Shown here: positions 1 to 3,083 of the stretch, in pieces
Numbering within the stretch: position 1 is the stretch's first letter
How the letters are laid out: each line of letters begins with the position of its first letter
Assembly (NCBI GenBank): GCA_000720995.1
Contig: JOEL01000054.1
Coordinates: 1-45,260 of the forward strand
From: Streptomyces celluloflavus
GTDB taxonomy: Bacteria; Actinomycetota; Actinomycetes; Streptomycetales; Streptomycetaceae
Length of the DNA: 45,260 nucleotides
Reading direction: 5' to 3'
Notes under the pieces: generated by a model
Seen by the model: only the letters and a program-made list of their open reading frames with translations
What the model was told of the DNA's origin: nothing
The model's database searches: none
Position numbers and translations under genes: made by a program

Positions 1-198
1 CATAATCGAGTCCCGGTCCGAATTCCGGCATGCCGAAATTGTTCCCGGTGAGGGACCGTGCAGTAGTGGTGTGCCGCTGAAGCGGCGGGATGGCTGCCGG
101 GGGCCTGTCGGCTCCGCGGCAACTCGGAGAACACTACACGAGGGGGTCAGGTGCATCAAACCCGTGCCGGGCGGGCGTTGGCGGGGTACGTTGAGGCC

Positions 199-240
199 AT
201 GACTACGCATGCGCTCGTACAGCAGTGGTGGCCCGCCTGA
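199..240 (+). CDS. Trp-rich leader peptide of trpS attenuator (13 aa)
   Basis: A short reading frame encodes MTTHALVQQWWPA and stops with TGA at 238-240. It has two consecutive TGG Trp codons at 226-231, although Trp is normally rare. A GAGG lies just before the ATG at 193-196, which is close spacing. It ends 123 bases before the trpS start and is followed at once by alternative inverted repeats, so its job is inferred to be sensing charged tRNA-Trp: a ribosome stalled on the Trp codons changes leader RNA folding. The codons and pairings are seen directly. The mechanism is the classical trp-leader model, and I recall that an auxiliary, indolmycin-resistant TrpRS gene of S. coelicolor is reported to be controlled this way. 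Confidence 0.85.
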   Translation: MTTHALVQQWWPA

Positions 241-292
241 CGGCGGCCGACCACCAGCGCATGCAGACCACGGCCGCCGCTTCGGCGGCCGT
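207..292 (+). promoter_or_regulatory. Transcription attenuator of trpS
   Basis: Three pairings can be read. (1:2) 207-214 plus the Trp codons 226-231 pair with 251-264: GCATGCGC with GCGCATGC, and TGGTGG with CCACCA. (2:3, antiterminator) CGGCGGCCG at 241-249 pairs perfectly with CGGCCGCCG at 271-279. (3:4, terminator) ACGGCCGCCG at 270-279 pairs perfectly with CGGCGGCCGT at 283-292 around a 3-base loop. The 2:3 and 3:4 pairings are mutually exclusive. A ribosome stalled at 226-231 would break 1:2 and free 241-249 to form 2:3. A ribosome finishing at 240 would cover 241-249 and allow 3:4. No U-run follows the terminator, which is common in Streptomyces. Confidence 0.8.
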
Positions 293-363
293 TCGCGTAT
301 CTCCATCTCGTAGCCGGCCGGCGAGGGCGACGGTCCCGACAGCGGTACGGGAGAGATGGATTC

Positions 364-1374
364 ATGGACGACATGGCGAAAACGCGCATCTTCAGTGGCG
401 TAAAGCCGACGGGACACCTGACGCTCGGGAATTACCTCGGGGCGATGCGACGCTGGGCCGACGAGGACCAGCACCGTGCGGATGCCTTGTTCTGTGTGGT
501 GGATCTGCACGCGCTGACCGTGGAGCACGATCCGGCGCGGGTGCGGCGGCTGAGCCGGCAGGCCGCGACGCTGCTGCTGGCCATGGGGCTGGATCCGGAG
601 CGGTGCACGGTGTTCGTGCAGAGCCAGGTGGTCGAGCATGCGCGGCTGTCGTATCTGATGGAGTGCACGGCCACGGACGGCGAGATGCGGCGCATGATCC
701 AGTACAAGGAGAAGGCCGCGGGTGAGCGGGCGCGGGGCGGGAGTGTGCGGCTGTCGCTGCTGACGTATCCGGCGCTGATGGCGGCGGACATCCTGGCGTA
801 CGGGACGCACGAGGTGCCGGTCGGCGAGGACCAGGCACAGCATCTGGAGCTGACCCGGGATCTGGCGGTGCGGTTCAACCAGCGGTACGGGCCGACGTTC
901 GTGGTGCCGAAGGCAACGCATCCGCAGGTGGCGGCGCGGGTGATGGACCTGACGGAGCCCACCTCGAAGATGGGGAAGTCGAACGGTACGACCGCGGGGA
1001 TCGTCTATCTGCTGGACGAGGCGGACGTGGTGCGCAAGAAGGTGATGCGCGCCGTGACGGATGCGGGCCGGGACGTCGTCTACGACAGGGCGGAGCGGCC
1101 GGGAGTCGCGAATCTGCTGGATGTGCTGGCGGCCTGTACGGGTGGTGAGCCGGCGGAGCTGGCCGGGGCGTACACCTCGTACGGGGCGTTGAAGAAGGAC
1201 ACGGCGGAAGCGGTGGTGGAGCTGTTGCGGCCGGTGCGGGAGCGGCATGCGGAGCTGGCCGCGGACGGCGGGTACGTCGATTCCGTGCTGCGGGCCGGGG
1301 CGGACCGGGCGCGGGAGATGGCGCGGCCGCGGGTGGATGCGGCGTACCGGGCGGTGGGGCTGCTGCCCGGGTGA
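364..1374 (+). CDS. trpS: Tryptophanyl-tRNA synthetase
   Basis: Class Ic aminoacyl-tRNA synthetase that charges tRNA-Trp in the cytoplasm. The 336-residue length is normal for the family. The HIGH-type signature is TGHLTLGN at residues 16-23, and the KMSKS-type loop is KMGKS beginning at residue 202. ATG 364 has a GGGAGAG ribosome-binding site about 8 bases upstream; ATG 373 (MAKTRIF) is a second in-frame start but lies too far from it. An attenuator with a Trp-Trp leader peptide precedes the gene, so expression should rise when charged tRNA-Trp falls. By gene order next to proC it resembles the auxiliary, indolmycin-resistant TrpRS of S. coelicolor rather than a constitutive housekeeping copy; that equivalence is inference. 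Confidence 0.97.
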   Translation: MDDMAKTRIFSGVKPTGHLTLGNYLGAMRRWADEDQHRADALFCVVDLHALTVEHDPARVRRLSRQAATLLLAMGLDPERCTVFVQSQVVEHARLSYLMECTATDGEMRRMIQYKEKAAGERARGGSVRLSLLTYPALMAADILAYGTHEVPVGEDQAQHLELTRDLAVRFNQRYGPTFVVPKATHPQVAARVMDLTEPTSKMGKSNGTTAGIVYLLDEADVVRKKVMRAVTDAGRDVVYDRAERPGVANLLDVLAACTGGEPAELAGAYTSYGALKKDTAEAVVELLRPVRERHAELAADGGYVDSVLRAGADRAREMARPRVDAAYRAVGLLPG

Positions 1375-1383
1375 AGCGCGGCG

Positions 1384-1418
1384 GGGCGGCCGTCCCTGTG
1401 CAGTCGGGGCGGCCGCCC
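1384..1418. terminator. Bidirectional terminator between trpS and proC
   Basis: GGGCGGCCG at 1384-1392 pairs perfectly with CGGCCGCCC at 1410-1418. It sits in the 68-base gap between two convergent genes and has no U-run. Confidence 0.65.
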
Positions 1419-1442
1419 GGTGGTGGGTGTGCGGGGTGTGGG

Positions 1443-2252
1443 TCAGCTGTTGCCGGAGGCGAGTTCGCGGCTGCGGTCGCGGGCCGCCTCCAGGGCGGCG
1501 AGCATGGCGGCGCGTACGCCGTGGTTCTCCAGTTCGCGGATGGCGTTGATGGTGGTGCCGGCCGGGGATGTGACGTTCTCGCGGAGCTTGACCGGGTGTT
1601 CGCCGCTGTCGCGGAGCATCACGGCGGCGCCGATGGCGGCCTGCACGATCAGGTCGTGGGCCTTGTCGCGGGGCAGTCCGAGGAGGATGCCGGCGTCGGT
1701 CATCGCCTCGACGAGGAAGAAGAAGTACGCCGGACCGGAGCCGGAGAGCGCGGTGGCGGCGTCCTGCTGGGACTCCGGGACGCGCAGGGTCTTGCCGACG
1801 CCGGAGAAGATCTCCTCGGCGCGGGTGAGGTGGGCTCCGGTGGCGTGGGTGCCGGCGGAGATGACGGACATCGCCTCGTCCACCAGGGCGGGGGTGTTCG
1901 TCATGACGCGGACGACGGGGGTACCGGCGGCCAGCCGCTCCTCGACGAAGGCGGTGGGGATGCCGGCCGCGCCGCTGATGACCAGCCGGTCGGCGGGGAC
2001 GTGCGGGGCCAGTTCGTCCAGGAGGGTGCCCATGTCCTGGGGTTTGACGGTGAGGATGAGGGTGTCGGCGGACTTGGCGGCCTCGGCGTTGCTGACCGCT
2101 TCGACGCCGTAACGGGCGCGCAGCTGTTCCGCGCGTTCGGGGCGGCGGGCGGTGACCAGCAGGTCAGCGGGCGCCCAGCCGCCTCGGATCATGCCGCTGA
2201 GCAGGGCTTCGCCGATTTTTCCGGTGCCGAGTACGGCGACCTTCTGGGTCAT
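1443..2252 (-). CDS. proC: Pyrroline-5-carboxylate reductase
   Basis: Catalyses the last step of proline synthesis, NAD(P)H-dependent reduction of 1-pyrroline-5-carboxylate. The protein starts MTQKVAVLGTGKIGEALLSG with the N-terminal Rossmann motif GTGKIGEA. The C-terminal dimerisation half holds the family signature region around LSGSGPAYFFFLVEAM, followed by VTSPAGTTI. The length of 269 residues is normal. I prefer ATG 2252, which has GAGG about 11 bases upstream; a GTG four codons earlier at 2264 lies directly against that GAGG. It is convergent with trpS and shares its terminator. Confidence 0.96.
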   Translation of the reverse strand: MTQKVAVLGTGKIGEALLSGMIRGGWAPADLLVTARRPERAEQLRARYGVEAVSNAEAAKSADTLILTVKPQDMGTLLDELAPHVPADRLVISGAAGIPTAFVEERLAAGTPVVRVMTNTPALVDEAMSVISAGTHATGAHLTRAEEIFSGVGKTLRVPESQQDAATALSGSGPAYFFFLVEAMTDAGILLGLPRDKAHDLIVQAAIGAAVMLRDSGEHPVKLRENVTSPAGTTINAIRELENHGVRAAMLAALEAARDRSRELASGNS

Positions 2253-3083
2253 GCTGCGGTTCACCTCGCCGGTGGTGCCTGATCGGTTACGCCGTCATCC
2301 TCGCACCCGGGGGCGCGCGGTGCGGGGGCGTTCCGCGGGCCGGGACGCCGTGGTGCGCCCAGGACGCCGGGGTGCAGACGGTAGGCCGTACGGCCGGGCA
2401 TCGGTCTCGGTCGTCGGGCCGTACGGCGGCGGGCGGCGCCGCGGGGCAGTGCGGGGAGGACGCAGTCGGTGACGACGGCGGGGGGGACCCTTCGGCTGCG
2501 TCGGCCGCCGGAAAGCGCGTCGGGGTGAGGCCGATGTCCTCGATGGCGCGGGGAGCGGCTCTCGCGGTGCTCGGGGCGGGTGGCCCGGCCGGGGTGCGGG
2601 GTGCGTGCGGGGCGCACAGCGCGGGCACACGGGCGGCATACGGACGACTCACGTACGACCGGCGAACGGCCACGTACGCCCGCACCCGGCCCCACCCACG
2701 AGCCGGGCCACGATCGGCCACGGCCCGGACCAGAAGTCGTTCACGCGTAGTCCAGAAGCAGCACAGAAGCGATCCAAGAGCCGCCCAGCAGCAGCCCGGT
2801 AGCAGCCCAGAAGTAATCCACACATGGTCAGCGCCCGGTCGAAGGTGGGCATATCGCGAGCCGTCCCACGGGACACATCACGGGACGCCTCACGAACGCG
2901 GGAGAGACAGCGAGACATATAGCGGAGCGCAATGCCAGCTAATGACCGATAACGCCTCACATGACCACAATCCCCCATCCAACCGGAAGTGACCGGCGTT
3001 GAGCCGGAAATGACCGTAGGGTCGGGGAAATCGCGAACGACGAACTCGTGAACCACGAACTCGTGAACGAATTGAGGAGTCCT
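2253..3083. other. Intergenic region without a convincing gene
   Basis: About 830 bases lie between proC and the M1 peptidase gene. Overlapping Arg/Pro/Ala-rich open frames exist on both strands but none shows a recognisable motif or a credible start. The stretch 2730-2830 is rich in short CAGCAG and AGAAGC-like words. At 2983-3016 CCGGAARTGACCG occurs twice. At 3040-3068 a 14-base word is repeated in tandem. Codon-like periodicity on the minus strand around 2450-2560 could be a decayed gene, but I cannot support it. Confidence 0.5.
3040..3068. repeat. Tandem 15-bp repeat before the M1 peptidase gene
   Basis: ACGAACTCGTGAAC occurs at 3040-3053 and again at 3055-3068, one base apart. The pair lies 15 bases upstream of the GTG start at 3084, within the probable 5' untranslated region. 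The embedded ACGAACTCGT is partly palindromic. It could be a protein- or RNA-binding site; nothing more can be said. Confidence 0.7.

Follow-up and report, generated by a model that had tools for sequence, protein, structure and literature searches.

A very probable ribosome-mediated transcription attenuator ahead of the auxiliary tryptophanyl-tRNA synthetase gene of Streptomyces celluloflavus, and its occurrence among relatives

The trpS locus and its leader

The window, i.e. the whole stretch of 45,260 nt analysed here, is the start of contig C54 in an 8.68-Mb genome of Streptomyces celluloflavus. It carries trpS, whose product scores 310.1 bits against the TIGR00233 trpS model (cut-off 176.75) and matches PF00579. 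Three PF00579 proteins occur in the genome, namely the TrpRS of the window and, judged by eye, a second TrpRS and a TyrRS. The leader and the genes next to it are as follows.

187..192, + strand: putative −10 box TACGTT, 6 nt upstream of the leader start codon
199..240, + strand: leader peptide ORF, 13 codons, ATG at 199 and TGA at 238–240, probably leaderless
226..231, + strand: two Trp codons (codons 10–11 of the leader), proposed stall site
364..1374, + strand: trpS, auxiliary tryptophan--tRNA ligase (P0001, 336 aa; TIGR00233, PF00579), alternative start ATG at 373
1443–2264, − strand: proC (TIGR00112), opposite to trpS

A sequence-only reading of this DNA had proposed a 13-residue leader with Trp-Trp at 226–231, and both the coordinates and the peptide, MTTHALVQQWWPA, were verified. 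Relatives were taken from a scan of public genomes; the window and the best 80 of 556 relatives, all of them Streptomyces and thus close kin, form the 81 loci whose alignment (A1) was used for pairing counts. The leader ORF and the hairpins are present upstream of the same gene in 81/81 loci, the ORF having 13 codons in 80 and 15 codons in one. The reading had named a lack of conserved Trp codons as evidence against itself, and we found at least one Trp in 81/81 leaders and two in 77/81, codon 10 being Trp throughout and codon 11 being Trp in 77 loci and Arg in four. The Trp-Arg leaders, with TGGCGG in place of the two Trp codons, are those of L026, L053, L058 and L066.

A wider set contained 186 loci with a TrpRS match, 181 of which were parsed automatically; the Trp leader and hairpins of the other five (L125, L156, L157, L160 and L189) are present by eye. 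L139 was mis-parsed and excluded from the −10 and 3:4 counts, which refer to 180 loci, and is still within the 35 representatives used for the ribosome-binding site below. Some loci are the same place twice (e.g. L117/L136 and L118/L146), and loci should not be read as independent genomes.

From the end of a TANNNT motif to the leader start, the spacing is 6 nt in 43 loci and 7 nt in 127, i.e. in 170/180 loci altogether, and the motif lies 6–7 nt ahead of the leader start in 57 of 66 divergence representatives. For S. lividans, the −10 motif TAnnnT is reported to lie on average 6.3 nt from the start (PMC8079986). Median pairing with the 16S tail is −4.8 kcal/mol before the leader start versus −9.4 kcal/mol before trpS, and the window value is −6.9 kcal/mol. 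With TANNNT only 6–7 nt before the start codon, the leader mRNA of the window looks leaderless, and judged from these motifs the A of the leader start codon is probably its first base. A scan of 1–2300 for E. coli-type promoters returned none. In many loci a TCAAA motif (155–161 in the window, often TGTCAAA or TGTCAAC) was seen by eye about 26–27 nt upstream of the −10 box, a spacing too large for a usual −35 box.

Further upstream, an opposite-strand rRNA operon was seen in five of six loci with a long upstream stretch (L012, L018, L019, L029 and L078; none in L071), in four of which the 5′ end of 16S is some 670 nt away from the leader, while L018 has a 23S/5S end there. An rRNA operon at this position probably explains why the contig ends just upstream of trpS, in the window and in many other genomes.

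Alternative helices and their conservation

The leader codons overlap a set of complementary segments.

207..214, + strand: 5′ arm of the outer helix, pairs with 257–264
231..237, + strand: segment 1 of the inner helix, leader codons pairing with 242–248, one mismatch in this species
241..249, + strand: segment 2, partner of segment 1 or, in the antiterminator, of segment 3
257..264, + strand: 3′ arm of the outer helix, pairs with 207–214
270..279, + strand: segment 3, 271–279 pairing with 241–249 and 270–279 with 283–292
283..292, + strand: segment 4, forming with segment 3 a terminator-like hairpin without a U-run

Perfect complements are 207–214/257–264, 241–249/271–279 and 270–279/283–292, the second of which bears out the antiterminator 2:3 as proposed. 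The best fold of 199–300 has −55.3 kcal/mol (z = −3.47; 1/200 shuffles as stable) and consists of 207–215/256–264, 225–233/245–254 with one bulge, 235–237/242–244 and 270–279/283–292, so that leader codons form the partner of segment 2 (242–248) in the 1:2 state. In most relatives the inner helix is GGCCGCC:GGCGGCC flanking the stop codon; in this species the mismatch of segment 1 is replaced by an extended pairing. The exclusive 1:2 helix is 231–237 with 242–248, or the extended 225–237 with 242–254 in S. celluloflavus. Since segment 2 is paired to the leader codons in the 1:2 state, 1:2, 2:3 and 3:4 are mutually exclusive in the textbook style. The exclusion of 2:3 and 3:4 in the sequence-only reading was likewise confirmed, as both use segment 3, and the exclusive helices overlap the leader ORF. 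The 1:2 pairing claimed there was retained in part: 207–214 with 257–264 is perfect and covaries, but 226–231 with 251–256 is neither in the best fold nor conserved. This helix over the Trp codons is complementary, but it is formed in 44% of countable cells over the 81 loci, shows no covariation beyond controls, and was rejected.

Chance complementarity in GC-rich DNA had to be weighed here, as GC-rich repeats such as CGGCGGCC are presumably common in such genomes. However, only 1/5000 dinucleotide shuffles contained a segment/complement/segment triple with 9 perfect bases (triples of 6 in 80/5000), and frames of 100 nt along both strands of the window held no triple of 8 other than this one. 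The shuffles, together with conservation in 81/81 loci and covariation, refute this explanation, to which we assign a practically negligible probability.

Over the 81 loci, the seven main pairs of the outer helix are standard pairs in 98.4% and the eighth in 90.0%, and five of the eight pairs have changed on both sides (40 cells). The covariation score of this helix was reached by 0/500 shuffles and the number of such pairs by 15/500, in controls that leave the relatedness of the loci in place. The inner helix 231–237:242–248 is paired in 98.8% of cells with almost no variation, 2:3 is paired in 99.0% with 0 cells changed on both sides, and 3:4 is paired in 99.4% and nearly invariant. Because segments 2, 3 and 4 are near-invariant, 2:3 and 3:4 give almost no covariation signal within Streptomyces; the covariation among orthologues for which the earlier reading had asked was thus found in the outer helix, while 2:3 and 3:4 hardly vary. 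In the 180 wider loci, which were chosen by motif so that paired counts are inflated, the end pairs of 3:4 are the only pairs of that helix to vary on both sides (A-T 162, T-A 7; G-C 152, C-G 5). Helix 2:3 was counted in 170/180 of these loci, the other ten having no segment 2 by the pattern used.

A structured leader in front of an aminoacyl-tRNA synthetase gene would also suit a tRNA-binding T-box or another riboswitch. Against this, Rfam gave 0 families at gathering score in the whole window and, for 1–3000, two unrelated sub-threshold matches only, and the helices share their sequence with a leader ORF whose Trp codons are conserved. We therefore regard such an element as extremely improbable.

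Ribosome position, termination and translation of trpS

Folding with and without ribosome constraints, a check suggested with the original proposal, was carried out by blocking the ribosome footprint, with footprint lengths that are assumptions. A stall at codon 10 gave a 2:3 probability of 0.97–0.99 at transcript ends 279–288, a stall at codon 11 gave only 0.66, and a ribosome at the stop codon gave 0; with no ribosome, the probability of 1:2 was 1.0. At equilibrium 3:4 (−20.2 kcal/mol) is more stable than 2:3 (−17.7 kcal/mol), and as soon as the transcript includes base 292, 3:4 prevails under all conditions modelled (probability 0.90 or more, and 0.93 even with a stall), hence the switch must depend on the order of folding. 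Other attenuators likewise depend on folding order.

We consider it very likely that the element controls the auxiliary tryptophanyl-tRNA synthetase gene by ribosome-mediated transcription attenuation. Sensing of Trp-tRNA by the leader ribosome, as originally claimed, is the best reading, with the Trp codons kept and the outer helix covarying. From the computed leader, helices, exclusion, conservation and outer-helix covariation, we infer stalling, termination, antitermination and the inducer as follows. Transcription would begin with the first base of the leader start codon. If the Trp codons are translated through, the ribosome would halt at TGA 238–240 and cover segment 2, whereupon 3:4 would pair and RNA polymerase would stop. 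If charged Trp-tRNA is short, or a TrpRS inhibitor prevents charging, a ribosome stalled at codon 10 or 11 would free segment 2 from segment 1; segment 2 could then capture segment 3 while segment 4 has yet to be transcribed, and trpS would be expressed as RNA. Without translation, the whole 207–264 domain would fold, segment 2 would be hidden and the 3:4 hairpin would form.

The terminator claimed for 3:4 stands as a perfect complement; the hairpin, however, has no U-run, being followed directly by GTTCGCGTAT, and a scan of 1–2300 returned 0 terminators. Without a U-run after 3:4, intrinsic termination is not evident from the sequence. This, and the two hairpins with no uridine-enriched sequence reported in the available part of the S. 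lividans text (PMC8079986), would fit control by Rho or RNA polymerase pausing instead of an intrinsic terminator; in the Rho version, the factor would load on a leader with no ribosomes close behind, and ribosome stalling or formation of 2:3 would be protective. On the other hand, 3:4 is nearly invariant, and its overlap with the partner of segment 2 is exact, which is what one would expect of an intrinsic terminator/antiterminator pair. Moreover, Streptomyces terminators without U-runs exist. We judge mediation by Rho or pausing to be improbable and keep transcription attenuation with 3:4 as the terminating hairpin.

Downstream of this hairpin, two further stretches may pair.

302..309, + strand: candidate anti-Shine–Dalgarno arm, pairs with 353–360, suggestive only
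353..360, + strand: ribosome-binding-site (RBS) arm of the same candidate hairpin, upstream of trpS, pairs with 302–309

The candidate arm is CU-rich and lies just 3′ of the attenuator hairpin; it might hide the RBS and so control translation of trpS, alone or besides attenuation. Among 35 divergent representatives, the RBS zone pairs with the arm at a mean probability of 0.44 versus 0.157 in shuffles, with 25/35 above their own shuffle mean (Wilcoxon p 1e-5), and in a first swap test of 15 representatives 13/20000 permutations were as good as native. However, total exposure of the RBS zone barely differs (0.337 versus 0.387 in shuffles), 949/20000 permutations were as good in a wider swap test, composition-shuffled arms gave z from 0.68 to −2.76 so that the observed −1.70 is not special, and for short arms composition nulls were as extreme in 7/100, 16/100, 18/150 and 20/150. 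By its composition, a CU-rich tail fits a purine-rich binding site; tests for specific co-evolution fail under composition control. RBS pairing is also alike in both attenuator states (unpaired 0.29 versus 0.33), and RBS exposure rose by >0.2 upon antitermination in only 9/114 loci. Translational control by this arm is thus doubtful, and in these folding models the hairpin is suggestive as a second layer.

A two-layer switch, in which the leaderless Trp attenuator sets trpS transcription and the 3′ flank of the hairpin folds onto the RBS so that leaked transcripts are poorly translated, is a tentative proposal that we hold unlikely. The trp leader of B. subtilis has a translation-level layer involving a binding protein; the two-layer switch would work in a similar manner, but without a binding protein. 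No mention of an RBS hairpin before trpS was found in the available parts of the S. lividans and S. avermitilis accounts, and with the S. coelicolor account of 2010 outside the scope of this study we claim no novelty for it.

Known systems and distribution with the auxiliary TrpRS

Vecchione and Sello reportedly described in 2010 an auxiliary, indolmycin-resistant TrpRS gene of S. coelicolor under ribosome-mediated transcriptional attenuation. The window would share the type of gene and the named mechanism with that system. In S. lividans TK24, trpL2 (SLIV_21112) lies upstream of trpS (SLIV_21110) and encodes MMTRTCTQLWRAA, with a leaderless start by RNA-seq, two hairpins and no uridine-rich stretch, according to the available part of that report (PMC8079986). 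The window has the same pattern, namely a 13-residue Trp leader (MMTRTCTQLWRAA versus MTTHALVQQWWPA) before trpS and two hairpins with no U-rich stretch, whereas trpL2 has a single Trp codon (W-R) where the window has W-W; 4/81 loci also have W-R. For S. avermitilis trpS2, a candidate classical attenuator was predicted in 2005 by Seliverstov et al. (PMC1262725, available part), which is alike in standing before a Streptomyces trpS. According to the same source, attenuators found before trp operons in Streptomyces and Corynebacterium share the runs of Trp codons and the complementary triples gGCC-rGCy-GGCC, but have poly-U tracts after their terminators, unlike the window hairpin (PMC1262725). 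With the same element described in S. lividans, predicted in S. avermitilis and named in the 2010 S. coelicolor title, the window element is an orthologue of a described system and is already known. The sequence-only reading was right that the principle had been reported, the same leader being printed for S. lividans in the part of that text available (PMC8079986).

In this genome, the attenuator of the window is the sole match of RNA model R1. Among 199 Streptomyces genomes, counted by hand from listings, R1 matches 134 (130 strong, 62 bits or more, and 4 weak) and a TrpRS of the window's type (74% identity or more) is found in 133. Attenuator and auxiliary TrpRS occur together in 129/133 genomes with this TrpRS type; in the remaining four the upstream stretch is wholly or partly unread, and one of them shows half of the hairpin. 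In one genome, which is 78% complete, a strong attenuator is accompanied by no more than an enzyme fragment within the 3 kb read. Weak R1 matches (27–34 bits), here and beyond the genus, were inspected in part; L197, L198 and L199 are weak matches with decayed-looking remnants of the attenuator or hairpin, in genomes without this TrpRS type. Apparent TrpRS fusions in four genomes (open frames >1100 codons) were artefacts of unread stretches.

Beyond the genus, R1 matches 65/150 genomes of the family (9/17 genera, Streptomyces included) and 45/296 of the class (12/114 genera). Twelve distant loci were opened (L120–L131), of which ten adjoin a TrpRS gene of 37–57% identity and two adjoin trpD. 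The latter are L120 (1501–1602) and L122 (1501–1604), from two other actinobacterial families, where the R1 match is upstream of trpD and the leaders are MIKRVDGWWPAS and, by eye, MIAYSFLWWPAS; in these matches the same layout serves biosynthesis genes. Leaders such as VKSLVLVWWLPS stand before TrpRS genes 37–38% identical to the window's in L125–L131, L186–L188 and L191, and a GCTCTC...GAGAGC hairpin over the RBS was seen by eye in L126–L131.

No Rfam family matched the attenuator, and the quality of the alignment suffices to build an RNA family model. Across the sampled Streptomyces genomes, this known control of the auxiliary TrpRS gene is near-universal wherever the gene occurs. As this gene type is reported to be indolmycin-resistant (PMC9437257), a switch of this kind would make self-protection inducible.
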